A stretch of DNA of 12,017 nt. Source: Desulfocapsa sp. (GTDB taxonomy: Bacteria; Desulfobacterota; Desulfobulbia; Desulfobulbales; Desulfocapsaceae). How positions within the stretch are numbered: position 1 is the stretch's first letter; the number at the start of each line of letters is the position of its first letter. The position numbers were made by a program, and so were the translations under genes. This document shows positions 1 to 12,017 of this stretch, one piece after another. The notes beneath the pieces were generated by a model that was not told the DNA's origin, did no database searches, and worked only from the letters and a program-made list of their open reading frames with translations. The DNA lies in contig DAOVZA010000024.1 of assembly GCA_030635405.1 (NCBI GenBank), positions 1-12,017 of the forward strand, written 5' to 3'.

Positions 1-10
1 CATTTTTATT

Positions 11-26
11 TGCCAGAAATGTGCCA
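11..26 (-). promoter_or_regulatory. sigma54 (-24/-12) promoter reading leftward out of the window
   Basis: On the minus strand the bases read TGGCACATTTCTGGCA. This keeps the -24 GG and the -12 GC at the required 10-nt spacing and matches the consensus TGGCACGNNNNTTGCW except at the base after TGGCAC and one T of TTGC. The predicted start of transcription falls at about position 1 or just outside, so the target gene is not visible. A sigma54 activator is encoded nearby (3404-4834), and candidate enhancer sites lie 116-144 bp upstream of this start. Seen: the motif. Inferred: function. Confidence 0.6.
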
Positions 27-100
27 CATTAATAATCCATTCAACAGTACGTAAATACACTATGTTACAGACACATCTTTCTTTATACTCTGACCCCACT

Positions 101-144
101 TCGACATTCTCAGCTTTGTCGACAAAAACGTCGAACATCGACAA
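101..144. promoter_or_regulatory. Cluster of TTGTCGA/TCGACAA inverted repeats, candidate enhancer
   Basis: The motif TCGACA occurs at 101-106, 119-124 and 138-143. The reverse half-site TTGTCGA is at 116-122 and pairs perfectly with TCGACAA at 138-144 (15-nt spacer), and a 12-bp perfect palindrome, TTTGTCGACAAA, sits at 115-126. Relative to the predicted leftward sigma54 start, the paired 116-144 arms lie at about -116 to -144, the usual enhancer distance. The half-site TTGTCGA differs by one base from the TTGTCCA arms at 4838-4857. Binding by the activator encoded at 3404-4834 is inference. Confidence 0.45.
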
Positions 145-288
145 TGTACAATAAAACAGATACACAAGATACTTTCCAGTTGCTTCTTAGCAACTAAAGA
201 TAAGCATTTCAGTATAATAAATACTCCTTTTATAGAGCATTAATTCAAAGCAACACTCGGTTTTTATTTCATTTTTTCTATCAACAGC

Positions 289-318
289 TTGACATTTACA
301 CCTTTGAAAGCTTAAACT
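289..318 (+). promoter_or_regulatory. Possible sigma70 promoter of the kinase-activator operon
   Basis: A perfect -35 TTGACA (289-294) is followed after 18 bases by TAAACT (313-318, four of six matches to TATAAT). Transcription would begin near 325, giving a leader of about 60 nt before the GTG at 388. The isolated TATAAT at 213-218 is an alternative that lacks a -35. Confidence 0.35.
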
Positions 319-387
319 TAAATTGAAAATAAATTAGCACTGGGTCAATATACTCATAAACTTCCATTCTTCTTTAGTGATACCAAG

Positions 388-3300
388 GTGATTTTCAAAG
401 ACCTCAATGCAGCAAAAACTGCAATCAAAATTGTCATTATTTATATATCGATTGCCAGCCTCGGCATAATACTGATTCCATGGTTTAACCATAGTAGCGC
501 TCTATTCTCCATTTCTCCCATCTACTTACTTCAGGATGCTTTTTTTCTCCTGCTAAGCAGCTGTCCTCTTTTTTATCTGATTTACCGATCCGCCTCACAA
601 CAAAATCATCACCAGCAAGTAGCGAAACAGAGTGAATTACGATATCGCTCACTGTTTAATAATATGGGTAATGGTGCTTGTGTTTATCGCCCCATTGATG
701 GAGACCAGGACTTTGTAATTGTAGATTTAAATAGCAAAGGTGGAGAAATCGCCAAAGTTAATCGACAAGACTATATAAACCGTAAAGTTTCAACCTTCCC
801 ACCGGATGTAACACATGAAGAGTTATTACAAACAATAAAAAGAGTACACACAACTGGAATAGCTGAAGATTGTCCCATAGACAGATACCGAAACAATCTT
901 CTTGAAACAAGTAGAGCTAACTATGTTTATCGTCTGGATTCGGGAGAAATAGTTGTTATCTATAATGACATCACAGAAAAAAAACGTCTGGAAGAACAAC
1001 TCAAACAATCGAAAGAAAAAGTTGCCCTCCAGAACAGTATCATCACATTGTTTCTAACGATAAATGATGATGCTGTGTACCAACATGTCCTGAAACTCAT
1101 AAACAATAATTTCGACTGCAATTATGGCTCCTTGGGCTACTTTGATGACCAGGATCAGGTCATTATTACCAGCCTGAACAATATCCAATGTAAATACTAT
1201 ACAATTGCCGTCAAGGATCTCGTAACGGAGAATGAGAGCACAAAAAGAATACTCGACAAAGTGCTAGAAACGGGAACTCATTTCATCCAGAACGAACCAT
1301 TCACCTCGCCAATAACTCAAACAGCTCTTCAAAACGGGGTGGCCATTCCCATTCAATTTCAGGAAAAAACAATTGCCATACTTTTTCTTGGCAACAAAAC
1401 AGAATCATACACCGGTAATGACGTTGATTTACTGAAAGATATCTGCTCCTACATAGCACCTATCATTAACGCCAGGCTTGAGGCTCATCATAGTGCCCGG
1501 CTACACCACGAAGCAAACACAAAACTGAAAAAAAGTGAATCCAACTTAAAAGAGGCTGAAAAACTGGCAAAGACAGGCCATTGGGAATACGATTTTATGA
1601 ACGATACGCTTCTTTGTTCAGATGAGGTGTATCAAATTTGCGGCCTTGAAGCGGCTCACTTCATCCCAAACGCCAAGACTCTCTCATCTCTCATTCACCC
1701 GGATGATCAAAGATATGTTAAACGCGCCTATATAACAGCAATCAAAGACAAAAAAATCTGTGAACTTCCTCACAGGATATTGCTGGATGACGGCACAGTA
1801 AAACATGTGCAGGATCGTTGTGTAGTAACATATGACGACAAGGGTAACCCTGTCAGTTCGCTAGGAACAGTACAAGATATAACTGAAAGAGTAAGGGCAG
1901 AAGAGACAACTAAAATGCTTGCCACTGCCATTGAGCAGGCCGTGGATGCTGTTCTTGTCACAGACAATAACGGAATTATCCAGTATGTAAATCCAGCCTT
2001 TGAAAAACTTTCCGGCTATACAAAAGAGGAAACCATGGGGCAAAACCCACGTTTTCTGAAAAGTGGTGAGCATTCATCAGCATTTTATCAAGACCTATGG
2101 ACAACTATCTCAAGTGGCGAAATCTGGCAGGGTCAACTTATTAACAAAAGTAAATCTGGTGAAATATTATTCGAAGAAACAACAATAACACCCATCAGAG
2201 ACGACACCAAAAAAATCATTAATTATGTCGCTGTCAGGCATAACATTTCCCGTGAGATTGAACTGGAAGAACAACTTCGACAGGCTGTAAAAATGGAAGC
2301 GGTGGGAACTTTTGCAGGAGGAATTGCTCATGATTTTAACAATATCCTTGGAGCCATGCTCGGCTTTACCCAAATGGCCATGGACGAAATCCCTAAGAAA
2401 AGCCAAGCCTACAAAGATCTCAGTGAAGTACTTCAATCTGGAGACAGAGCCGCAGACCTTGTTAAGCAAATCCTCCTTTTCGGTCGCCACCAGAACCAGG
2501 GACACGTTCCAGTACAGATACAATTCCTAATCAAAGAGGCCATCAAGATGCTCCGCGCATCACTTTCCGCCTCAATAGTAATAGAAGAAAATATCGACGT
2601 AGATTGCCCTTCGATAATGGCAGACCCAACACAGATTTACCAGGTTCTAATAAACCTCTGTGCCAATTCCAGACAAGCTATGCTTCAACATGGTGGAACT
2701 CTCAGCATTGGGTTATCACATACAGATTTTTCAAAGGATGACTTGAAGATGCCTGCTAATGTTGCTCCCGGGCAATATATAAAGATAACCATTGAAGACA
2801 CTGGTTCAGGCATAGAAGAAAAAACACTTTCCCGAATTTTTGATCCTTTCTTCACAACGAAAAGCATTGGTGAAGGAACTGGTTTGGGATTAGCCGTTGT
2901 TCATGGTATAATAAAGAGTCACCATGGCCATATTTCAGTGAAAAGCACTCTTCAAGAAGGGACGAAATTCACTGTTTTACTTCCCGTGGATGAAACTGAC
3001 ACAAAAGTAGAACCAATTGCTAATAACGACACACTCCCTACTGGAACTGAGCATATCCTGGTGGTGGACGATGAACCCAATATTTTGCTGATTCGTGAAC
3101 GATTACTCTTAAAATTGGGATATCAGGTCAGCACTTTTGGAAACGGCCTTGAAGCGTTGGAAGCTTTCCAGAAAGAGCCTCTTCAGTACGATCTGTTGCT
3201 CGTTGACATGGCCATGCCTGGTATGGATGGTAAAGAATTTATTGCCAACATAAAAAAGATCACCCCAGATGTACCAGCCATTCTCTGTACTGGAAATGCT

Positions 3301-3414
3301 GAGCTTCTTACTAAGGATCAGGCAATTCAATATGGTTTTTGCGACCTGCTTGAAAAACCAATTAAACCATTGCCACTAGCCAAAGCGATACGTAGATACT
3401 TAAATGAAAAATAG
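388..3414 (+). CDS. Membrane-anchored hybrid sensor histidine kinase (PAS-GAF-PAS-PAS-HisKA-HATPase-REC)
   Basis: Predicted to autophosphorylate and pass phosphate to its own receiver and to the adjacent activator. Two membrane segments (about residues 13-33 and 47-68) enclose only a very short outside loop, so sensing is probably cytoplasmic. Then come PAS (83-200), a short coiled coil, GAF (212-370), PAS with PAC (392-505), a second PAS with PAC (511-625), HisKA with phosphoacceptor His648 in GGIAHDFNN, HATPase with N-box Asn756/Asn760, DTGSGI (804-809) and GEGTGLGL (828-835), and a receiver (886-1005) with Asp894/Asp895, phospho-Asp940 and Lys990. All catalytic residues are present. The start is a GTG with only a weak AAGG nearby. 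The frame is open back to a stop at 319-321, and the first in-frame ATG would remove both membrane segments. The signal sensed cannot be told from sequence. The gene overlaps the next one by 11 nt. Confidence 0.93.
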   Translation: MIFKDLNAAKTAIKIVIIYISIASLGIILIPWFNHSSALFSISPIYLLQDAFFLLLSSCPLFYLIYRSASQQNHHQQVAKQSELRYRSLFNNMGNGACVYRPIDGDQDFVIVDLNSKGGEIAKVNRQDYINRKVSTFPPDVTHEELLQTIKRVHTTGIAEDCPIDRYRNNLLETSRANYVYRLDSGEIVVIYNDITEKKRLEEQLKQSKEKVALQNSIITLFLTINDDAVYQHVLKLINNNFDCNYGSLGYFDDQDQVIITSLNNIQCKYYTIAVKDLVTENESTKRILDKVLETGTHFIQNEPFTSPITQTALQNGVAIPIQFQEKTIAILFLGNKTESYTGNDVDLLKDICSYIAPIINARLEAHHSARLHHEANTKLKKSESNLKEAEKLAKTGHWEYDFMNDTLLCSDEVYQICGLEAAHFIPNAKTLSSLIHPDDQRYVKRAYITAIKDKKICELPHRILLDDGTVKHVQDRCVVTYDDKGNPVSSLGTVQDITERVRAEETTKMLATAIEQAVDAVLVTDNNGIIQYVNPAFEKLSGYTKEETMGQNPRFLKSGEHSSAFYQDLWTTISSGEIWQGQLINKSKSGEILFEETTITPIRDDTKKIINYVAVRHNISREIELEEQLRQAVKMEAVGTFAGGIAHDFNNILGAMLGFTQMAMDEIPKKSQAYKDLSEVLQSGDRAADLVKQILLFGRHQNQGHVPVQIQFLIKEAIKMLRASLSASIVIEENIDVDCPSIMADPTQIYQVLINLCANSRQAMLQHGGTLSIGLSHTDFSKDDLKMPANVAPGQYIKITIEDTGSGIEEKTLSRIFDPFFTTKSIGEGTGLGLAVVHGIIKSHHGHISVKSTLQEGTKFTVLLPVDETDTKVEPIANNDTLPTGTEHILVVDDEPNILLIRERLLLKLGYQVSTFGNGLEALEAFQKEPLQYDLLLVDMAMPGMDGKEFIANIKKITPDVPAILCTGNAELLTKDQAIQYGFCDLLEKPIKPLPLAKAIRRYLNEK

Positions 3415-4834
3415 CAAACAGCCTGAAGAACAGGAAAACATAGCCAGAATTCTGATTATCGATGATGACGTGACTCTTTGCTACATGCTGCATGAACAAT
3501 TAAATCGCAAAGGTTACGAAACAGAATCAGCCAATACTCTTAAGGATGGTCTTCTTCTTGCCAATCAAGACTACTGGGACTGCATACTTCTCGATGTTCA
3601 AATGCCGGACGGCAATGGCCTGACATTCCTCCCTCAATTCGTAGCAACCCATTCCTCTCCTGAAGTTATTATTATTACGGGACATGGGGCTGCAGATGGC
3701 GCAGAAAAGGCAATCCTTGGTGGTGCCTGGAGCTATATTGAGAAACCTCATGTTATTCGAGACTTACCTCTCCATCTAGCAAGGGCATTACAATTCCGTG
3801 AAGAAAAACAGCGAATGAAAATCATCCCTGTTTCTTTGAAGCGTGGTTCAATTATTGGTAATTCAGAAAAACTGAGCAACTGTCTTGACCAACTTGCCTC
3901 AGCAGCCTCGAGTGATATCAGCGTACTCATTACAGGGGAAACAGGTACAGGCAAGGAACTTTTTGCTCAAGCTCTTCATGATAACAGTGAAAGGTCGAAA
4001 AAACCTTTTGTTGTGGTGGATTGCGCGTCACTGCCAGACACTCTCATCGAGAGCACTCTTTTCGGACACGTCAAAGGAGCATTCACAGGTGCAGACAGAG
4101 CACAGGAAGGCTTAATCCAACATGCACATCAGGGAACACTTTTCCTGGACGAAGTGGGAGAACTCCCGCTGGCTATACAGAAAAAATTTCTGAGAATCTT
4201 ACAGGAACGAAAGTTTCGTCCGGTTGGGGGCACCAAAGAAATTTCCTCTGACTTCAGACTTGTTGCAGCTACAAACCGTGATCTGTCCAAAATGGTGGAA
4301 GAGGGACTCTTTCGCAATGATTTACTTTTTCGGCTTCATGCCATGAACATTACCCTGCCTCCGCTCCGGGAAAGAATTGAAGATGTCAGGGAGCTTGTTA
4401 TTTATTTTCTGGAAAAACTCTGTGACCGCTACAGTAGAGAAACAAAGGGTATCGCACCTGACTTTATTGAAGGTCTGACAGATTTTAACTGGCCGGGAAA
4501 TATAAGGGAATTACATCAAACGGTGGAACAGATTTTTGCCGAAAGCGTTAATGCACCAACACTTTACTCTATTCACCTGCCACAGCAACTGCGGATTAGT
4601 ATTGCCAGAGCAGGGATAAAGGGAAACCACACAACACCAGTCAGTAATTATACGCCAACCTCACTGCTACCGTGGAAAGAATTCAAATCGAAAAGTGAAC
4701 ATGATTATATGAAAAGCCTCATGCAACTAAGTGATAATAATATTCGCAAGGCATGTGAGATTTCAACCCTCTCAAGAGCCAGAATATATCAACTGCTCGA
4801 TAAGCACAGTATTATCATCAATCCACAAAAATAG
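3404..4834 (+). CDS. NtrC-family sigma54-dependent response regulator
   Basis: A 476-aa enhancer-binding activator. The receiver (about 14-130) has the acidic cluster Asp20-Asp22, phospho-Asp64 and the conserved EKP lysine. The AAA+ domain (about 150-385) has Walker A GETGTGKE (178-185), the sigma54-contacting loop GAFTGA (225-230), Walker B with Asp249-Glu250, and a sensor/arginine-finger region near LFRNDLLFRL. A Fis-type helix-turn-helix closes the protein (about 430-470, recognition helix near SRARIYQLL from 457). All elements for ATP-driven opening of sigma54 promoters are intact. The ATG lies inside the end of the kinase gene (11-nt overlap, translational coupling likely), which makes that kinase the obvious partner. 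Two sigma54 promoters flank the pair, at 11-26 and 4939-4954. The biological process controlled is unknown. Confidence 0.94.
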   Translation: MKNSKQPEEQENIARILIIDDDVTLCYMLHEQLNRKGYETESANTLKDGLLLANQDYWDCILLDVQMPDGNGLTFLPQFVATHSSPEVIIITGHGAADGAEKAILGGAWSYIEKPHVIRDLPLHLARALQFREEKQRMKIIPVSLKRGSIIGNSEKLSNCLDQLASAASSDISVLITGETGTGKELFAQALHDNSERSKKPFVVVDCASLPDTLIESTLFGHVKGAFTGADRAQEGLIQHAHQGTLFLDEVGELPLAIQKKFLRILQERKFRPVGGTKEISSDFRLVAATNRDLSKMVEEGLFRNDLLFRLHAMNITLPPLRERIEDVRELVIYFLEKLCDRYSRETKGIAPDFIEGLTDFNWPGNIRELHQTVEQIFAESVNAPTLYSIHLPQQLRISIARAGIKGNHTTPVSNYTPTSLLPWKEFKSKSEHDYMKSLMQLSDNNIRKACEISTLSRARIYQLLDKHSIIINPQK

Positions 4835-4836
4835 AC

Positions 4837-4858
4837 GTTGTCCATTTTTTTGGACAAC
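4837..4858. promoter_or_regulatory. Candidate enhancer site for the 4939 sigma54 promoter
   Basis: The 8-bp inverted repeat GTTGTCCA-N6-TGGACAAC spans about -128 to -107 relative to the predicted start near 4965, a typical position for an NtrC-type enhancer. Its half-site TTGTCCA matches TTGTCGA of the cluster at 101-144 except for one base. The dual reading as terminator and operator is inference. Confidence 0.4.
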
Positions 4859-4866
4859 TTTCTACT
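4837..4866 (+). terminator. Hairpin after the activator gene, possible intrinsic terminator
   Basis: GTTGTCCA (4837-4844) pairs perfectly with TGGACAAC (4851-4858) around a six-T loop, three bases after the activator's stop codon. The following TTTCTACTTTTCC is only a broken T-tract, so termination may be inefficient. The same sequence is also a candidate activator site, entered separately. Confidence 0.45.
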
Positions 4867-4938
4867 TTTCCAAATCGAGGCCATCTCCCCAAGCCACTGA
4901 TTTTCTTTTATTTATACTATAACTTTTCACACGCACAG

Positions 4939-4954
4939 TGGCACACAAGTTGCA
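4939..4954 (+). promoter_or_regulatory. sigma54 (-24/-12) promoter of the 135-aa gene
   Basis: TGGCACACAAGTTGCA matches the consensus TGGCACGNNNNTTGCW at every conserved position but one, with GG at -24 and GC at -12 correctly spaced. Transcription should begin near 4965, giving a 38-nt leader with AGGA at 4990-4993 before the ATG at 5003. It follows directly after a gene for a sigma54 activator with an intact GAFTGA loop, which makes regulation by that protein likely. Confidence 0.8.
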
Positions 4955-5002
4955 ATGTCACTTTAAACGTATTTTATTAATTTTTACGCAGGAATTTTCT
5001 TC

Positions 5003-5410
5003 ATGCAGCTTTTTTTCTATGCCAGTGAACAATCTAATGATGCTGAGGCCTATGCCGAAAAGCTACTCAGCAAAAAACCGCTGCAATCTTTATCAATCCT
5101 GCCTGCAGGAAAACAACTCAAAAGCGATCATAGCCTGAAACTCAGAAATGGGGATATTATGATTCTTTTTGCAGCAACGCACCTGGAACTGGATAAACTA
5201 CTGGCTATAAATAGAATATTTAATGAATTCCGTGTTGTTCTTGTTTTAAAACGACAGGAAAATCCTGACATCCTTAGCAACATTCATATACTTAAGCCAC
5301 GCTTTATCACTTTCACAAACAGTGCTATTGGCAATCTGGAAGATGTCATCACCAAAATGCAAAACCGTGCGGGTAACTCTACTGCAACAAACCCTCTATT
5401 CACGAATTAA
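5003..5410 (+). CDS. Hypothetical 135-aa protein, sigma54-controlled, family not recognised
   Basis: I do not recognise this protein. It has no signal peptide, no clear membrane segment and no cysteine. Predicted alternation of strands and helices (strand MQLFFYAS, helix near 13-24, strand near DIMILFAA, amphipathic helix near 60-72, strand RVVLVLK, strand RFITFT, C-terminal helix) resembles a receiver-like alpha/beta fold. It lacks the acidic pocket and has Phe where the phospho-Asp would be expected after the DIMIL strand. That comparison is inference from pattern only. The start is supported by AGGA nine bases upstream. The gene has its own sigma54 promoter and follows the activator gene, so it is probably a target or accessory component of that two-component system. 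Its stop codon TAA coincides with the left target-site copy of the foldback element. Confidence 0.72.
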   Translation: MQLFFYASEQSNDAEAYAEKLLSKKPLQSLSILPAGKQLKSDHSLKLRNGDIMILFAATHLELDKLLAINRIFNEFRVVLVLKRQENPDILSNIHILKPRFITFTNSAIGNLEDVITKMQNRAGNSTATNPLFTN

Positions 5411-5589
5411 GGGTCTGTAGGAAAATAACATGGCTGAAACTGCACTTATATTTGGGTTGTATTTGGATGTTGCGATTGAGGAAAACCGCAGGCGTAGCTT
5501 GCTACGTTGAGGATTTTCCGATTGAACAACATTCAAAGACGACCCGAAGATAAGATGTAAGATTGGCCATGTTATTTTTTTACAGTCCC
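5411..5589. mobile_element. 179-bp foldback MITE-like element with TAA target duplication
   Basis: The two halves are imperfect reverse complements over nearly the whole length, meeting at the perfect hairpin tip CGTAGC-TT-GCTACG (5493-5506). The outer 24 bases of each end match with three differences. The left end begins GGGTCTGTA and the right end, read inward, begins GGGACTGTA. TAA flanks both sides (5408-5410 and 5590-5592), consistent with a 3-bp target duplication. There is no transposase gene, so any movement would need one supplied in trans. TNA targets of 3 bp are known for some IS5-family groups, but this assignment is tentative. It sits between two converging genes, where its RNA hairpin could also act as a bidirectional terminator. 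Confidence 0.7.
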
Positions 5590-6393
5590 TAAGGCATGTC
5601 GCTGCCTTAACATTTCAAATAGTATCACACCTGCTGCAACTGAACTGTTCAAAGAGTCCAGCTCTCCTTCCATGGGAATAGAAAGCAGCACATCGCATTG
5701 TTTACGTACCAACGGCCGAATACCAGAACCTTCACTACCCACTACGATACAGGTAGGAAGAACCAGATCCGATTGGTAAAGCGATTGCGCTTCAGCATCT
5801 TTTATGGCACCAAAAACCCACGCCCCGACATCTTTTAATGCCTGCAGTGACTGTGCAAGATTGGTCACCTGACAGATATCAATGTGAGACATGGCACCTG
5901 CTGCTGATTTTGCAGCTGTTCCACCAATGGGGGCGGATCGTTCCCGGGTTACAATAACACCATCAACACCGGATGCATGAGCAGAGCGGATGATTGCCCC
6001 GATGTTATGTGGATCCTGGAGGGTATCGAGTGCGATAATTCGTGGATTTTTTCCCTGCGCCACAAGAGACTTAAACTTATCGAGCAGATCATCAAAGGGC
6101 ATTAAACAGGTCTGTGACATTTTCGCCACAACACCCTGATGACGAACCTGTGCCGCTTCTTCACCAACCAGACGAATGGAATCCATAAAGTGAATCTTAA
6201 TTCCAGCAGCTTTCGCCTTCTCTATGATCTCTTCGCGCTTACCGCCCTTTCTATCCTTTACAATATATATTTCACTCATCCGGTCAGCTTCCTGATCGAC
6301 CGCTTCAAAAACAGGATGAATCCCCCAGAGTAAATCTTCACTCAAGCGAATTTTACGTTCATTTCCTTTGTGAAATCCTTTACTATTTTTCAT
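5572..6393 (-). CDS. rlmB: 23S rRNA (guanosine-2'-O-)-methyltransferase RlmB (SpoU/TrmH family)
   Basis: Methylates the 2'-oxygen of a guanosine in the peptidyl-transferase loop of 23S rRNA (G2251 in E. coli) using S-adenosylmethionine. An N-terminal substrate-binding domain begins at LLWGIHPVFEA. The SPOUT domain follows, with motif 1 NIGAIIRSA (Arg136), motif 2 GSEGSGIRPLV (from 219) and motif 3 with Asn249 in SLNSSVAAGV, which forms the knot. The length (273 aa) is slightly above the usual 245-250. ATG at 6393 is chosen over GTG at 6396 because GGTGGT lies five bases before it. The gene overlaps gmk by 11 nt. The last five codons and the stop lie inside the foldback element. Without the insertion the protein would read on from the same Leu to Ile-Arg-Glu-stop. 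Confidence 0.93.
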   Translation of the reverse strand: MKNSKGFHKGNERKIRLSEDLLWGIHPVFEAVDQEADRMSEIYIVKDRKGGKREEIIEKAKAAGIKIHFMDSIRLVGEEAAQVRHQGVVAKMSQTCLMPFDDLLDKFKSLVAQGKNPRIIALDTLQDPHNIGAIIRSAHASGVDGVIVTRERSAPIGGTAAKSAAGAMSHIDICQVTNLAQSLQALKDVGAWVFGAIKDAEAQSLYQSDLVLPTCIVVGSEGSGIRPLVRKQCDVLLSIPMEGELDSLNSSVAAGVILFEMLRQRHALGTVKK

Positions 6394-7009
6394 CACTTAC
6401 CACCATTAAATTTATAGCTTCACCCGTTGGCAATCGATGCCCCCTGCTGCGCTCTGCAATAAGAACAGCCTGAAGAGTAGTAGCAGCGACATCGAGGTCA
6501 TCATTAATCACAAGGTAATTATAAACGCCTGCACAACTCATCTCTTTTGCAGCATTGCCAAGACGGACCGTAATGGTCTCATCACTTTCTGTGCCACGTC
6601 CACGAAGACGCCTCTCAAGTTCATCAAGTGAAGGTGGAGCAACAAAAATTGAGACGGCATCCACTTTTTTATCAGCAGTTATAATTGCAGCGCCTTGAAC
6701 ATCTATGTCAAGGATGACGTCTACTCCCTGCTCCAATTGTTTAAGGACTGCGGGACGGCTGGTACCATAAAAATTCCCGTGTACTTCAGCCCATTCCAGA
6801 AACAGATCCTGATCGCGCATGGCTTTAAATTCATCCACTGTAACGAAGTGATAATCGACACCATCTTTTTCACCTTTACGTGGTGATCTTGTCGTGTGTG
6901 AAATAGAAAACGCCAGGCTTCCGGTCTCCTGCATCACCTTCTTTACGATGGTAGTTTTCCCCGTACCCGATGGTGCCGAAAGAATAAAAAGCTGTCCTGT
7001 TGCTGTCAT
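6383..7009 (-). CDS. gmk: Guanylate kinase
   Basis: Phosphorylates GMP to GDP with ATP, an essential step in guanine nucleotide supply. The P-loop SAPSGTGKTT spans residues 11-20 (Lys18). The GMP-binding region follows, with SHTTRSPRKGEKDGVDYHFV and later GNFYGTS, and the lid region contains RLRGRGTES. The 208-aa length is normal for the family. A TTG at 7018 would also be open, but AGGAG lies about ten bases before the ATG at 7009 and only one base before the TTG, so the ATG is preferred. It starts five bases after the remA stop and overlaps rlmB at its end, so all three are probably cotranscribed. Confidence 0.95.
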   Translation of the reverse strand: MTATGQLFILSAPSGTGKTTIVKKVMQETGSLAFSISHTTRSPRKGEKDGVDYHFVTVDEFKAMRDQDLFLEWAEVHGNFYGTSRPAVLKQLEQGVDVILDIDVQGAAIITADKKVDAVSIFVAPPSLDELERRLRGRGTESDETITVRLGNAAKEMSCAGVYNYLVINDDLDVAATTLQAVLIAERSRGHRLPTGEAINLMVVSDEK

Positions 7010-7014
7010 TTTAC

Positions 7015-7296
7015 TCAATCTCCTGTTCCTTTAATCGCATCACTCACATGGGGACTTAGCTGAAGAGATGCCAAACGCTGGTTGATTGTATCGGGTTGAA
7101 TTGAAGAAAGAATAACATGGTTTGAATCCATTATCAGCATGGAACGTGTTCGCCTTCCTTCGGTTACATCCAGCAATCGTCCGCTCTCTCTTGCCAGTTC
7201 TTTTAATTTTCTTGCAGGAGAAGAACCAGTATTAATTACAGCAATGATTCGTTCAACCATCACCGTATTTCCAAAGCCGATATTAATAAGTTGCAT
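7015..7296 (-). CDS. remA: RemA-like DUF370 regulator
   Basis: A 93-aa protein of the RemA/DUF370 family, recognised from [43 protein letters not shown] and [12 protein letters not shown]. In Bacillus subtilis RemA is a DNA-binding activator of biofilm-matrix genes. What it does in Gram-negative deltaproteobacteria is not established. The family's usual company is yicC upstream and gmk downstream, exactly as here. AGGGA about ten bases before the ATG supports the start. It begins 11 nt after the yicC stop. Confidence 0.9.
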
Positions 7297-7307
7297 GGAT
7301 ATCTTCC

Positions 7308-8189
7308 CTATTCGATGTTTTGAACCTGCTCTCTCATTTTCTCAAGCTCAGCCTTCAGATTCACTGTTAGATGGGCAATATCAGCGTCATTGATTTTGGA
7401 AGCCATGGTATTCACTTCGCGCAAAAACTCCTGCAGAAGAAAGTCTATTTTTCTACCCGTTGCTTCATCAGACTCAAGAAATTCTCTAAATTGATTAATA
7501 TGGCTATCAAGACGAACGATTTCTTCAGTAACATCTGTTTTATCTGCAAGAATAGCTACTTCCTGAGCCAGACGTTGCGGATCAAGCTGAACTCTATCAA
7601 GCAATTTTTGTAAACGCTCACTAAGATTTTGTTCTCTGCGTTCTAAAAGTTCTGGAATAGCATTGCCAATCTGCTGAACAACGCTTGTAAAGTTTTTCAG
7701 TCGCTCAGTTAAGTCCTGTGCCATTGCCTCGCCTTCACGGCTCCGCATCGTATCACAGGTAACAAGGGCAAGTTGCAAAGCTTTTTCCATGGTTGGCCAA
7801 ACAGCGTCAAGATCCTCTTCCTGTTGTTTCAAGACAAGAACGTCGGGATATGAAACAATTTGATCAAGTGTAACCTCAGCATCAAGATCAAGAGATTTCC
7901 CAAGATTTTTCAATGCCTCATTATAGGTTGCAGCAAGAGCGCTATTGACCTCTATTTCACGCAGGTCAGAAAAATCTCCGTTTACCGTGAGGGAGATATC
8001 TACCCGACCACGCTGCAGTGTTTGCCCCACAAGCTTTCGGACATCTTTTTCAAGACCGGCATAAGATCTTGGCAGTTTAATTTTAAGATCAAGATAACGA
8101 TGATTTACGCAGCGAATTTCTGCCACCCATTGCCTTCCACCCGATTCTGCTTCACCACGACCAAACCCGGTCATACTTTTACTTGGCAT
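7308..8189 (-). CDS. yicC: YicC/YloC-family endoribonuclease
   Basis: A 293-aa member of the YicC family, reported as an endoribonuclease in E. coli and B. subtilis. The N-terminal YicC domain begins SMTGFGRGE and contains [17 protein letters not shown] and RGRVDISL. The C-terminal DUF1732 domain carries [27 protein letters not shown] and [17 protein letters not shown], all close to consensus. Length is typical. AGGGA nine bases upstream supports the ATG at 8189, and a second ATG six codons in (8174) lacks a good ribosome site. It lies 15 nt after rfaE1 and 11 nt before remA. Confidence 0.94.
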
Positions 8190-8204
8190 TTTATATATTC
8201 CCTG

Positions 8205-9227
8205 TCAGCAACTGCTGAATGTTGTCTGTACCATTTCTTCTCCGCGAAGTACTGTGAGAAGTTCTTCCTGACTTACTGTGGCTGTTCCAACCTTTCCTAC
8301 CACAACTCCTGCTGCAACGTTTGCAAGAGACGCTGCGTCTGCAAAGTTTGCCTCTGCGGCAAGTCCGAGTGCAAGGGTTGCTATAACAGTATCCCCTGCG
8401 CCAGTCACATCAAAAACAGCCTGTGCTGTGGTTGGGATAGTAACAAGCTTTTTCCCTTTTTCAAGAAGGGCCATGCCGGATTCACCACGGGTAATGAGCA
8501 CCGCCTCGCAGCCGGTTTTTTCAAGAAGATGATCTGCTGCTATTCGCAGATCTTCTGCTGTCTCAATATTCATTCCAGAAAGCTTTTCTGCTTCCATATG
8601 ATTTGGAGTAATCAGAGATGCTCCGTAAAAACGTTCCGGCTCGCTCGGTTTTGGATCCACAACAACCGGAATCTTTTTCCCGCTCTCTTTCTCCACTTTC
8701 GCCACACGGGTAAGAAGCATCGTCATCAAACGTTTTCCAATAACACCCTTGTAGTAATCAGAAATAATAATTGCATCAAAATTTGCCAGACTATGATCAA
8801 GAAAGGCCGTAAGTGTTGCAACGGTTGCTTCTGAAGGAGCACTGGTTCGTTCTCGATCAAAACGTACAACCTGCTGGCCCTGGGCTACAACCCGAGTTTT
8901 TACGGTTGTGGGGCGCTTCCCCTTAACAAGACCATCCGTTGAAGCACCAAGATTTTTAAGGAGCCCCTGAAGACGTACTCCCATTTCATCATCACCAATA
9001 ATGCCACAAAGGACTGCTGTACCACCCAGTGCATATATATTGTGAAGAACGTTTGCTCCACCGCCAAGCAGATACTCTTCTGTCGTAACATTAACAACTG
9101 GCACAGGAGCTTCCGGTGAAATACGACTAACCGTTCCCCATATAAAATGATCAACGATGATATCGCCAACCACCAGTATTTTCTTTCCACCAATCTGGTG
9201 AACTAATTCTTCCAGTTCAGACTTCAT
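8205..9227 (-). CDS. rfaE1: D-glycero-beta-D-manno-heptose-7-phosphate kinase RfaE1 (HldA-type)
   Basis: Phosphorylates heptose 7-phosphate at C1 on the path to ADP-heptose for the LPS inner core. It belongs to the PfkB sugar-kinase family: RISPEAPVPVV and GGGANVLHNIYALGG (signature 1, from 55) near the N-terminus, and DVTGAGDT (273-280, catalytic base Asp279) near the C-terminus. At 340 aa it has only the kinase half of the E. coli HldE fusion. The adenylyltransferase (RfaE2) must be encoded elsewhere. The frame is open upstream to a TTG at 9284, but the ATG at 9227 gives the family's normal N-terminus and starts one base after the previous stop, with AAGGTGG somewhat far upstream. Confidence 0.92.
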   Translation of the reverse strand: MKSELEELVHQIGGKKILVVGDIIVDHFIWGTVSRISPEAPVPVVNVTTEEYLLGGGANVLHNIYALGGTAVLCGIIGDDEMGVRLQGLLKNLGASTDGLVKGKRPTTVKTRVVAQGQQVVRFDRERTSAPSEATVATLTAFLDHSLANFDAIIISDYYKGVIGKRLMTMLLTRVAKVEKESGKKIPVVVDPKPSEPERFYGASLITPNHMEAEKLSGMNIETAEDLRIAADHLLEKTGCEAVLITRGESGMALLEKGKKLVTIPTTAQAVFDVTGAGDTVIATLALGLAAEANFADAASLANVAAGVVVGKVGTATVSQEELLTVLRGEEMVQTTFSSC

Positions 9228-9228
9228 T

Positions 9229-10047
9229 TTATAATTTAACCCACCTTTCAGCCATTCGTTCACAAACAAAAACCAAGGACTCAATATCTAAAAAATCATT
9301 GACCTTACGATAAAAGAGAACTTTAACCTGTGCCGGAAATCCATCCTCTTTGTCTTCATCATAAAAAAGTACATAAAGCGGTAAACGAGGAAGTGCTGGC
9401 ACAAAAAAAGCAGCACTACAACTCTGTTCCGGGTTTTCCTGTAACAGAGCTCCTAAACTCGGTGCTCCCTTCACAAGAATATCTACTTTATCTGTGAAAA
9501 AGTTGGCAATGCGTTCCTCGCAATACACCCTTAATGTCCGAACCTTAGAGATGGAATTCGGAAGAGATTCCATGCCGACCCAATCAAGTAGTGGTTCAGC
9601 GCCACCTGCAAAATGGACATAGTTGTATAAAAGAATCTGATCCCGTGGATCCTCAACTTCTTCACCGTCAATAAGTATTCCATGGTGAGACAACTCAACA
9701 TCACGCCCAAGAAATTGAAGCAGCAGGCTATCTTTTTCGGGGCCTGACCATTTACAGCCAATAGCTTCGGCCGCTTTACTAAAATCAATATCACTGGTCT
9801 TTTTCTTGAGGTAGGCAACAAGGGCCAGATCTTTTTCATCTAGCAGTTTACCAACACCTTCAAGGCCATCCTTTCCTCTTTCGCTTTCGGAAAATTCATC
9901 ACCAAGTTGTGAAACATCAACGTAGGGACATTTTGCAGGGTTTTCACCACCTTTGGTTACAGCGGCAGCAAAAGCTAAACATGCAGGATAGCCACATTCA
10001 CCACAGTTGCTTTTAGGAGTAAACTTTATAAATTCTAATGGTTGCAT
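9229..10047 (-). CDS. Fe-S cluster protein with DUF3786 domain
   Basis: A 272-aa protein. Residues 15-40 carry four cysteines in the pattern C-X2-C-X4-C-X16-C (Cys15, 18, 23, 40), as in the small 4Fe-4S domain of RnfB and corrinoid Fe-S proteins. The rest matches what I know of DUF3786, with ILLYNYVHFAGGAE and a C-terminal half rich in hydrophobic strands. DUF3786 proteins occur mostly in anaerobes and their function is unknown, so an electron-transfer or corrinoid role is only possible. ATG at 10047 is chosen over TTG at 10086, which would lie inside the terminator hairpin. The ribosome site is weak (GGA eight bases upstream). It begins 14 nt after that terminator and is the first gene of the series running to rlmB, with one base before rfaE1. 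Confidence 0.85.
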   Translation of the reverse strand: MQPLEFIKFTPKSNCGECGYPACLAFAAAVTKGGENPAKCPYVDVSQLGDEFSESERGKDGLEGVGKLLDEKDLALVAYLKKKTSDIDFSKAAEAIGCKWSGPEKDSLLLQFLGRDVELSHHGILIDGEEVEDPRDQILLYNYVHFAGGAEPLLDWVGMESLPNSISKVRTLRVYCEERIANFFTDKVDILVKGAPSLGALLQENPEQSCSAAFFVPALPRLPLYVLFYDEDKEDGFPAQVKVLFYRKVNDFLDIESLVFVCERMAERWVKL

Positions 10048-10060
10048 TTTTTTATCCGGA

Positions 10061-10101
10061 CAAAGAAAAACGATGCAAAGGATCAATCCCCTGCATCGTT
10101 T
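10061..10101 (-). terminator. Intrinsic terminator of the pal-ompH unit
   Basis: The arms AAACGATGCA (10068-10077) and TGCATCGTTT (10092-10101) are perfect reverse complements. An inner GGA/TCC stem around a TCAA loop extends the hairpin. On the minus strand the stem is followed by TTTTTC and TTT. It starts about 35 nt after the ompH stop and ends just before the Fe-S gene. No convincing promoter lies between it and that gene. Confidence 0.8.
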
Positions 10102-10135
10102 GCAAACAGCCGTATTTCAAAGAATGGAAACTCTC

Positions 10136-10678
10136 TTATTTCAAACGACCATCGAGTTCTTTTGTGATGGCTGCAGTAATATCGATAGCAGGATCAGCAA
10201 AGAGGACACTAGATTGACCGGTGAGGGTGGAGTCAAGAATAACAGTGTATCCGTTTTTCTCTCCGAATCCTTTAACAACGGTTTGCAGCATTGTCATAAT
10301 AGGCTCGACCTCTTTTGCCTGCAGTTGTCTTAATTCAGCCTGAGCATCTTTACCCTTTGACTGTAATTCTCTTACTTTAAACTGAAATTCACGTGTTTTT
10401 TCTGCCTGCTTATCTTTATTCCAGACAGATTGCTTCTTTTCAATCTCCTGCTGCAGGGCTTTAATGGCTTTTTCTTCTTCCATGAATTTGGCCTTAAGTT
10501 CGCCATCTCGTTTTTTCAAGACTTCTGCTGCCTTTTTACCAGCACTGGAATCAAGAAGAACCTTCTGAATATTCATAACGCCAATTTTCTGCGTTTCAGC
10601 ACTTTGAGCTACACTGCTATTAAAAGTAAAACCTGCAAGTACCATCAAAGTTACTACTAACATTGCGCGTTTCAACAT
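10136..10678 (-). CDS. OmpH/Skp-family periplasmic chaperone
   Basis: Skp/OmpH holds unfolded outer-membrane proteins in the periplasm on their way to the BAM complex. The 180-aa product begins with a signal peptide (MLKRAMLVV then a hydrophobic core, cleavage likely around residues 24-27). The mature part opens with the family's IGVMNIQKVLLDSSAGKKA. A long charged coiled coil follows (about 50-125), forming the tentacles, and then a C-terminal strand region containing NGYTVILDS. ATG at 10678 has AGGAGAG six bases upstream. A TTG one codon earlier is less likely. It lies 40 nt after pal and is followed by a strong terminator. The usual neighbours bamA and lpxD are absent. Confidence 0.9.
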   Translation of the reverse strand: MLKRAMLVVTLMVLAGFTFNSSVAQSAETQKIGVMNIQKVLLDSSAGKKAAEVLKKRDGELKAKFMEEEKAIKALQQEIEKKQSVWNKDKQAEKTREFQFKVRELQSKGKDAQAELRQLQAKEVEPIMTMLQTVVKGFGEKNGYTVILDSTLTGQSSVLFADPAIDITAAITKELDGRLK

Positions 10679-10704
10679 CAACTTCTCTCCTGTTTGTAGG
10701 AATT

Positions 10705-10718
10705 AATAAATATTTATT
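10705..10718. repeat. 14-bp AT palindrome between pal and ompH
   Basis: AATAAATATTTATT is perfectly palindromic and ends directly next to the pal stop codon. It is too AT-rich to make a strong terminator. It may be a processing or stability element, or chance. Confidence 0.3.
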
Positions 10719-11228
10719 TTACTCAACCACAAAATCATCACGACGATTCTGTGCCCATGACATTTCGTCATGACCATGGAGAAGAATCTTTTCTTCCCCT
10801 AAGCTCACAGTGCTAATACGATCAGCAGAAATACCTAACGTAACCAGATACTTCTTTGCTCCCATAGCACGTCTTTCCCCAAGTGCCAGATTATACTCTC
10901 TGGTTCCACGAGGATCACAATTTCCCTCAATTCTTATTTTAGAGTCTTTCTTGTCCTTTAAAAAATCAGCATTCACTTTCATTCTCGGTGCCTGAGCACC
11001 CGATATGGCGTACTGATCAAACCCAAAATAAACGGGCAACATAGGTCCTGTGGTGCGACCTTCCATAATGCCTATGGATTTGGATACAAGAGATTCTTCC
11101 TTACCAATAGCCGCAGGATCCTGAACAGGAAGTTTTGCTTCTTCGGGCTTCTTACTAGCGCAAGCCGACAAAACCAGAATGACACTTAACAAAAACATAC
11201 CACGGTACAGGTTGTTTCCAGCTATCAT
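10719..11228 (-). CDS. pal: Peptidoglycan-associated lipoprotein Pal
   Basis: An outer-membrane lipoprotein that binds peptidoglycan and works with Tol proteins to hold the envelope together. At 169 aa it has a lipoprotein signal ending in the lipobox LSAC (lipidated Cys23), a flexible linker, and an OmpA-like domain (about 65-165). That domain contains VYFGFDQ, the peptidoglycan-binding stretch CDPRGTREYNLALGERRA (104-121, Asp105 and Arg119 expected to matter), and HDE...NRRDDFVV near the end. ATG at 11228 is preferred to GTG at 11249 because AGGAGAG is four bases upstream and the lipobox then sits at the usual distance. tolB is not visible downstream, where ompH follows instead. The likely promoter lies in 11229-11330. 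Confidence 0.93.
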   Translation of the reverse strand: MIAGNNLYRGMFLLSVILVLSACASKKPEEAKLPVQDPAAIGKEESLVSKSIGIMEGRTTGPMLPVYFGFDQYAISGAQAPRMKVNADFLKDKKDSKIRIEGNCDPRGTREYNLALGERRAMGAKKYLVTLGISADRISTVSLGEEKILLHGHDEMSWAQNRRDDFVVE

Positions 11229-11552
11229 ACTTCTCTCCTGTGAACACACTCATGTATTATTCGGTAATAGGGCTTACTCTTTTCACTAAATAAGGTTCTG
11301 TCAAAAAAAAAGTTGAAAATCTTACTTTTAAGTACCAAGTACCTAAAATTATTTTTCGATTCTACTTTTATTTAAGAAAAAATACCATACGTTTTCCCTG
11401 GCTCCATGCTAAGGTTGAATTTGTTTTTTTTATTCTGAATACGTTTTATACTTGATTATTACGATTTGCCTCTCTAAATAGATTTGCTGTTATCAATCAT
11501 TCATAAATTACTATTGCCGATCCACCCACTTTTCACTCAAAAGTAGAATATT
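11229..11552. other. Divergent intergenic region between pal and the phosphorylase
   Basis: No gene was seen. The region is AT-rich with several homopolymer runs. On the minus strand a perfect -35 TTGACA (11299-11304) faces pal, but only weak -10 candidates follow (AAGAGT near 11276-11281). On the plus strand TTGATT (11452-11457) and TAAATA (11475-11480), 17 bases apart, are a weak candidate for the phosphorylase. A 7-bp tandem repeat AAGTACC (11330-11343) overlaps the dyad TACTT-TT-AAGTA (11323-11334). ACTTTT-N5-AAAAGT (11528-11544) lies just before the phosphorylase ATG. Confidence 0.45.
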
Positions 11553-12017
11553 ATGCCGACAAGTAAACCAGTTCATAAAAATATAGATCCTCACAATCTC
11601 ATTGCAAAAAATCAGTTTGGAACATTTTTTGGCGTCACCCAAAAGACATTTGATGATGTATGGGGGAAGATTACAAATCCTGACGGCAATTCTGTTGTCT
11701 ATATCTCAATGGAAATTGGTGCCGACCCTGATGTTTTTCGTCCAATCAAGGATACACTTTTGAGCCTTGAAAAAATTGACAGTATGAATTCAAAGGCCAA
11801 AGAGTTTATAAAAAAGCTCCTTCATGGCCCGGAAAAAATTCCATGCTATGGCGGAGGTCTCGGGGTCCTTGCCGGTGACACATTGAAAAGCTTTGCCGAT
11901 TGCAGGGTTCCAGTTGTTGCTGTGAGTCTACTCTATCGGCACGGATATTTTTCGCAGATTGGCGATTAAAAAATTGGACAAACCTCACAAAGTGAGAAAT
12001 GGCATCCTGAAGAAACA
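11553..12017 (+). pseudogene. Glycogen/alpha-glucan phosphorylase, N-terminal part, interrupted by in-frame TAA
   Basis: Glycogen phosphorylase (GT35) releases glucose 1-phosphate from alpha-1,4-glucan. The first 138 codons are clearly this family: [15 protein letters not shown], then [19 protein letters not shown] and [15 protein letters not shown], matching the start of the shorter bacterial/archaeal phosphorylase type. Codon 139 (11967-11969) is TAA. Reading on in the same frame gives KIGQTSQSEKWHPEE, which fits the family's usual continuation after GYF.Q with a Gln and then W-x-P-E. The defect therefore looks like a single-base nonsense change (AAA to TAA would do) rather than a frameshift. 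Full members are several hundred residues long and the rest is outside the window. The ribosome site before the ATG is weak. It could be a true pseudogene, a sequencing error, or a strain-level polymorphism. Confidence 0.65.

Follow-up and report, generated by a model that had tools for sequence, protein, structure and literature searches.

A predicted sigma54 switch for chemosensory operons headed by a small receiver-like protein in Desulfocapsaceae, beside a probably separate left-hand circuit

Introduction

A hybrid histidine kinase and an NtrC-type activator are encoded side by side in a 12,017-nucleotide stretch of Desulfocapsa sp. DNA (GenBank assembly GCA_030635405.1, contig DAOVZA010000024.1, positions 1 to 12,017), referred to below as the window. 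The pair is flanked by two sigma54-like promoters, one directed leftward and the other directed rightward to a gene for a 135-residue protein. This layout raises the question of which genes the pair controls and how the small protein takes part. A first-pass annotation had read the arrangement as one self-contained signalling unit with an output on each side. The best overall explanation, to which we attach a probability of about 0.72, is that the right-hand half would be a two-component sigma54 switch for chemosensory operons and that the left promoter would belong to a separate circuit (Table 1).

Table 1. Features of the window, with position, strand and basis of assignment
Feature	Position	Strand	Basis
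Small gene; encodes 135 aa with a predicted receiver-like (beta-alpha)5 fold that lacks the phospho-Asp	5003..5410	+	open reading frame list, profiles, models
sigma54 -24/-12 element of the small gene, TGGCACACAAGTTGCA	4939..4954	+	pattern scan
Palindromic upstream site (predicted activator site), TGTCCATTTTTTTGGACA	4839..4856		motif fit, genome-wide pattern search
Hybrid histidine kinase, 1008 aa	388..3414	+	open reading frame list (GTG start as listed), Pfam
NtrC-type sigma54 activator, 476 aa	3404..4834	+	open reading frame list, Pfam
Candidate sigma70-type promoter of the kinase-activator operon	289..318	+	10/12 matches
Left sigma54 -24/-12 element, assigned to a different circuit, TGGCACATTTCTGGCA	11..26	-	pattern scan, DUF4405 comparison
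TGTCGA/TTCGAC half-sites of the left promoter	101-106, 119-124, 130-135, 138-143	-	positions by arithmetic
Palindromic dispersed repeat, mobile-looking, ~181 bp	about 5411..5593		folding, genome matches

Conservation of the small gene and its control region

The initial protein search with the 135-residue query returned three proteins, including one at 99 percent identity; the cluster at that identity (P0001) has three member sequences. The N-terminal extension of P0003, with a weak EF-P match, was judged to be a wrong start or an artefact. Alignment of the first relatives led to one named locus on a Desulfocapsaceae contig (L001), where the order is that of the window: hybrid kinase, activator, palindrome, sigma54-like element and small gene. 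A broader alignment found 22 proteins. Relatives of the small gene are present in 34 of the 93 genomes of this family and in 54 of 395 genomes of the phylum, some of them near the threshold, with up to four matches per genome. The family search gave 44 places, one of which, a fragment (G017:C360), was left out, and the phylum search gave 69 new places, of which 60 were fetched, the nine left out being among the weakest. The 103 distinct small genes analysed comprise a family group of 43, including the window, L001 and L003, and 60 others; their starts were chosen by fit to the profile. In one relative (L174, genome G013, 3173-3560) the frame of the small gene is interrupted although a receptor gene comes after it.

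Both promoters proposed in the first-pass annotation were recovered by the pattern scan. When the window was scanned with TGGCACN5TTGCW, the right one was the sole match without a mismatch, and the sole match with one mismatch was the left one, on the minus strand at 26-11; at up to three mismatches, 59 matches were found against 55 expected by chance. Of the 101 small genes with enough upstream sequence, 79 have a sigma54-like site with a score of 13 or more in the 300 bases before them, versus 80 of 1219 upstream regions of other open reading frames (Fisher p 3e-61, related sequences not being independent; the weights and consensus are our own, set from general knowledge). Where enough upstream sequence is present, 23 of 33 family loci and 29 of 52 others carry a same-strand activator gene no more than 1 kb before the small gene.

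The palindrome TGTCCAcaaaagTGGACA of the window (4839-4856), of the form TGTCCA-N6-TGGACA, is part of a perfect dyad spanning 4837-4858, and was first noticed by reading the activator-to-small-gene intervals of the loci listed. Its recurrence was assessed in 24 loci whose activator is at least 52 percent identical, lies within 800 bases and is on the same strand. A motif fit seeded by eye recovered TGTCCACAAAAGTGGACA-like sites in 20 of them, centred 105-175 bases upstream of the -12 element, with a mean best score of 16.6 versus 6.4-8.1 for the same seeds on shuffled regions. The site in the window scores 19.1, the best there, followed by 10.7. At the right promoter, a -24/-12 element is preceded by a conserved site at a distance of roughly 100-180 bases. 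The 93 genomes hold 19 matches to a stricter pattern, versus 7 for a reversed control, and nine of the 19 directly precede a small gene. Of the remaining ten, three were opened, and in each of them a sigma54-like site comes after the palindrome, with an operon behind it (labels partly by eye): a substrate-binding-like protein and a hybrid kinase in G010, a triple CheW and a PAS protein in G019, and a hybrid kinase and a protein resembling a methyl-accepting chemotaxis protein (MCP) in G004.

These comparisons give good support to the view that activator, palindromic site, sigma54 site and small gene form a conserved module. Homologous loci lacking the promoter and the small gene, which the first-pass annotation had named as evidence that would count against it, did not come out of the comparison, made from the small gene's side.

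Chemosensory genes downstream of the small gene

Among the family loci with at least 1.2 kb of downstream sequence, 33 of 38 have a homologue of MCP, CheW or CheA as the next gene of the operon; the five exceptions are the window, L037, L054, L060 and L066. This adjacency is not expected by chance, because six family genomes have 9-24 MCPsignal matches each. When the downstream proteins of family loci were searched with Pfam, eight of ten had MCPsignal, CheW or CheA domains, the remaining two being a receiver and a phosphonate-binding protein; a further ten included five CheA, two MCPs missed by the seeds and a secretin. Genes were called by longest open reading frame, so proteins labelled '?' may hide distant chemosensory genes, and those of L131 and L106 do carry MCPsignal above the Pfam cut-off. 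The final count includes seeds from these two loci as well as CheR and a second CheA; with its stricter operon rules and additional seeds it replaced an earlier, looser count that gave a chemosensory neighbour within three genes in 56 of 103. In L037 (G024, 1670-5871), a phosphonate-binding-type protein and a further hybrid kinase take the place of chemosensory genes after the small gene.

No Hpt match was found in the CheA of L039 (3001-4896), L070 (1238-3142) and L046 (1118-3088), and Hpt is matched in the CheA of L049, L129 and L044, the last on the opposite strand. The three CheA without a phosphotransfer domain are presumably comparable to the split CheA of Rhodobacter sphaeroides (CheA3/CheA4), from which they differ in having three CheW stretches each.

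A predicted receiver-like fold without the phospho-acceptor

The gene of unknown family announced by the first-pass annotation remains one: its product has no match in Pfam, NCBIfam or PHROGs. A Pfam search with 41 members gave a best E-value of 0.017, and no listed family was matched by more than one member. The small protein belongs to a family that is unnamed in the libraries searched. Its profile obtained three weak matches in the PDB, two designed proteins and the Spo0A receiver at E 0.65. With the model of the window protein, Foldseek returned two matches below 0.001 (4lda and 4myr); with a second model none was below 0.001 and the first row was CENP-M, while the slower aligner ranked receivers first. 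On these models the small protein is predicted to adopt a receiver-like fold. The receiver-like domains of TadZ/CpaE belong to pilus-assembly proteins, which have a further ATPase part, whereas the window protein stands alone and shares 14 and 7 percent identity with them.

Conservation was read from an alignment of 100 sequences, in which identical proteins were counted once and from which three short ones had been dropped. F56, the residue that we aligned with the phospho-acceptor aspartate, is replaced by D or E in none of the 100, and positions 7-11 past strand 1 hold D or E in just 2-19 percent. A four-cysteine motif near the N-terminus is present in ten of the 100 (e.g. L040, L041, L042, L069, L071) and could possibly be a metal site.

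The left promoter and DUF4405 operons

The left promoter is genuine and most likely answers to a regulator other than the neighbouring activator. Its element, TGGYAY-N5-TGGC, recurs upstream of DUF4405 genes in six loci and in L189, and the 16-mer of the window is found letter for letter in L185; with a final A/T, the pattern has a single match in the window and 18 in the 1.6 Mb of fetched loci, counting overlaps. In the window, L175, L185 and L189, half-sites are placed at about -110, -98 and -80 from the -24 element. L177 and L178 share -98 and -80, L183 has the outer two, and the -98 and -80 positions agree within 2 bases across loci. In L181, whose element is 278 bases away from the gene start that was used and upstream of it, the sites fall by arithmetic at -113, -101 and -82, with the same spacing. 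The operon of L185 (8056-12385) has its own NtrC-type activator and histidine kinase, besides a DUF4405 protein and a small protein. In L175 the DUF4405 gene runs divergently from the same hybrid kinase as in the window, matching the orientation of the left promoter there. The shared element with its phased half-sites, the activator of L185 and the layout of L175 together point to a different regulator. The left promoter would be the control region of a separate DUF4405-kinase-activator operon that probably starts left of the window.

The kinase, the activator and the surroundings of the module

The hybrid kinase and the NtrC-type activator with intact GAFTGA described in the first-pass annotation are borne out. 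Pfam assigns to the kinase GAF (228-360), PAS (best stretches 409-495 and 510-621), HisKA, HATPase_c and a C-terminal REC, and two membrane-spanning stretches were judged by eye at its N-terminus. Its gene overlaps that of the activator by 11 bases. The activator consists of a receiver (PF00072) and a Sigma54_activat/AAA+ domain (PF00158), whose GAFTGA loop was read straight from the translation. The acidic residues of its receiver are in place, and Asp64, Thr92 and Lys114 are invariant in a 22-sequence alignment of the module. Its C-terminus has no HTH_8 match at E 0.001 (Pfam), a helix-turn-helix-like stretch being recognised by eye only. In L001, the corresponding kinase (1424-4273) has a different N-terminal part, substrate-binding-domain-like by eye, so the sensed signal may vary among relatives. 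The sigma70-type promoter of Table 1 stems from a scan that found 19 matches versus 12.7 expected, such matches being common by chance. Rfam gave no match anywhere in the window at gathering scores.

The 3' side of the small gene is occupied by housekeeping genes (rlmB, gmk, yicC, a heptose kinase and others), mostly on the opposite strand, and before them by the dispersed repeat. The repeat folds at -93 kcal/mol (z -13) and occupies the place where two syntenic relatives have a chemoreceptor gene and others. With eight candidates per genome scored, it is matched in 35 of the 93 family genomes, some matches being just 20-30 bases long, and six near-full-length copies of 89-91 percent identity are present in G031, a distant family genome whose housekeeping genes match the window weakly. 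The syntenic relatives G013 and G014 run, in the window's orientation, from kinase and activator through small gene and MCP to a LysR regulator, with a kinase between these last two in G014 only, and on to a transglutaminase-like or unassigned protein, a smaller protein and rlmB. The simplest reading is that a chemoreceptor segment was lost, with the repeat at the junction. This is qualified by the nearest genome, G024, in which rlmB adjoins a DUF4405 operon with no module there. Between LysR and the DUF4405 operon of G011 (L189, 762-6198), kinase, activator, small gene and receptor are missing all together, which suggests that the module behaves as a cassette. Chemosensory genes being missing beside the small gene of the window, its partners, if any, would be encoded elsewhere.

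Discussion

In the proposed mechanism, the hybrid kinase would phosphorylate the activator, which would bind the palindrome, some 105 bases ahead of the -12 element, and open the right sigma54 promoter; conservation of the two sites suggests both binding and opening. In family relatives, which are sulfur-cycling bacteria, this promoter would usually start an operon with the small protein first, followed by a chemoreceptor, CheW or CheA, and the same palindrome also fronts a few unlinked operons of chemosensory and kinase genes. With chemosensory operons behind promoter and palindrome, the pair is best read as a regulator that would time a dedicated chemosensory complex. The predicted fold, receiver-like and without phospho-acceptor, makes it most likely that the small protein works by binding a partner, which may be in the chemosensory complex or may be the kinase; this is the weakest step. 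It is a more doubtful proposal that the complex signals without ordinary phosphotransfer, the small protein being a phosphorylation-dead, receiver-shaped structural or allosteric partner and the sigma54 pair setting when the complex exists; some relatives do pair the small protein with a CheA lacking Hpt (L039, L070, L046). The unit drawn in the first-pass annotation would hold for its right half, conserved beyond the window, and gives way at the left promoter, which has the sites and upstream-site spacing of DUF4405 operons. Nor does it appear self-contained, as in family relatives the right promoter normally starts a chemosensory operon headed by the small gene.

Several observations weigh against this mechanism. 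Ten of 33 family loci lack a same-strand activator in the 1 kb before the small gene, and no palindrome was found in four of the 24 motif loci (L036, L045, L048, L102), L036 carrying one of the closest activators. The three unlinked palindromes opened were those closest to the consensus among the ten, and the palindrome of the window also resembles a weak terminator. Outside the family, just 22 of 56 loci have a chemosensory gene first, with CheR counted as one. Where no chemosensory gene had been recognised, ten downstream genes were identified, and they proved to be one CheR and nine unrelated genes (MTHFR, acetyl-CoA hydrolase, proteases, kinase, sigma70, oxidoreductase, EAL/HDOD and others), and a secretin comes first after the small gene in L148. 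The window itself has no MCP, CheW or CheA gene, the repeat being followed by rlmB on the other strand. Finally, no homology of the small protein to receivers emerged from hhalign, which gave a probability of 0.5 percent for them and of 0.4 for an unrelated control.

The absence of chemosensory genes leads to the suggestion that the small gene of the window is a relic left after loss of their operon: in two syntenic relatives an MCP and a further 3-4 genes precede rlmB where the window has only the palindromic repeat, and the frame is broken in one of them, G013. Against decay stand the intact frame, exact sigma54 element and perfect palindrome of the window, as well as the three sequences of cluster P0001, and a relic is possible but on balance unlikely. 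The dyad at 4837-4858 could instead terminate the kinase-activator operon, the small gene then having an ordinary promoter. Its stem of 8 with 4 G-C pairs is followed by T-rich sequence and is terminator-like on both strands; yet 18-bp sites with the same half-sites recur 105-175 bases from the -12 element in 20 of 24 loci, similar sites front the three unlinked operons and several of the listed copies have no T run (by eye). This recurrence makes termination improbable.

That both promoters are outputs of this one pair is suggested by their sigma54-like form and by their position on either side of it, and the first-pass annotation had described similar dyads upstream of each. The dyads turn out to differ, TGTCCA-N6-TGGACA on the right versus TGTCGA/TTCGAC repeats on the left, and the 24-locus motif that scores 19.1 at 4839 reaches at most 2.5 in window 1-380, where shuffles average 2.2. 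The left TGTCGA spacing is moreover common to loci upstream of DUF4405 genes, and the L185 operon encodes its own kinase and NtrC-type activator. A single unit spanning both promoters was rejected on the motif scoring and the DUF4405 comparison, and we consider it very improbable. It is hardly credible, lastly, that the small protein functions as a CheY-type receiver and takes phosphate from the kinase or from CheA: the predicted fold and the chemosensory neighbours in relatives would fit, but F56 is never replaced by an acidic residue and the positions after strand 1 seldom hold one. The right-hand switch with a separate left circuit is preferred over all four.

Parts of this arrangement are already known, namely chemosensory genes under sigma54 control and pairs of kinase and activator that are linked to a chemosensory system (PMC2577667, PMC3510030). 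In Myxococcus xanthus, the histidine kinase CrdS and the NtrC-type activator CrdA are tied to the Che3 chemosensory system, CheA3 and CrdS setting the phosphorylation of CrdA, whereas the pair of the window type appears to sit above chemosensory genes and to switch them on; the accessible part of that account mentions no small receiver-like protein (PMC3510030). In the related Geobacter, che/mcp clusters include chemosensory operons with predicted sigma54 promoters, and the sections at hand describe neither a dedicated neighbouring kinase-activator pair with a palindrome nor such a small gene (PMC2577667). NtrC-type regulators of Desulfovibrio vulgaris have been assigned targets just downstream of their own gene, e.g. 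DVU0653, whose target is described, in the excerpts available, as a missing annotation or noncoding RNA (PMC3333781, PMC4641369). No description of the combination of kinase, activator, palindrome, small gene and chemosensory genes was found in searches of the open PMC literature, which is no claim of its absence from print.

Overall, an unnamed protein family of the Desulfobacterota would gain a likely regulator and a likely site for its binding, to which one bacterial family adds chemoreceptor, CheW and CheA as likely partners. A natural misreading is corrected, since what had passed for one unit is best read as two sigma54 circuits lying back to back, each with upstream sites of its own kind, and concrete predictions become available for a class of chemosensory operons.

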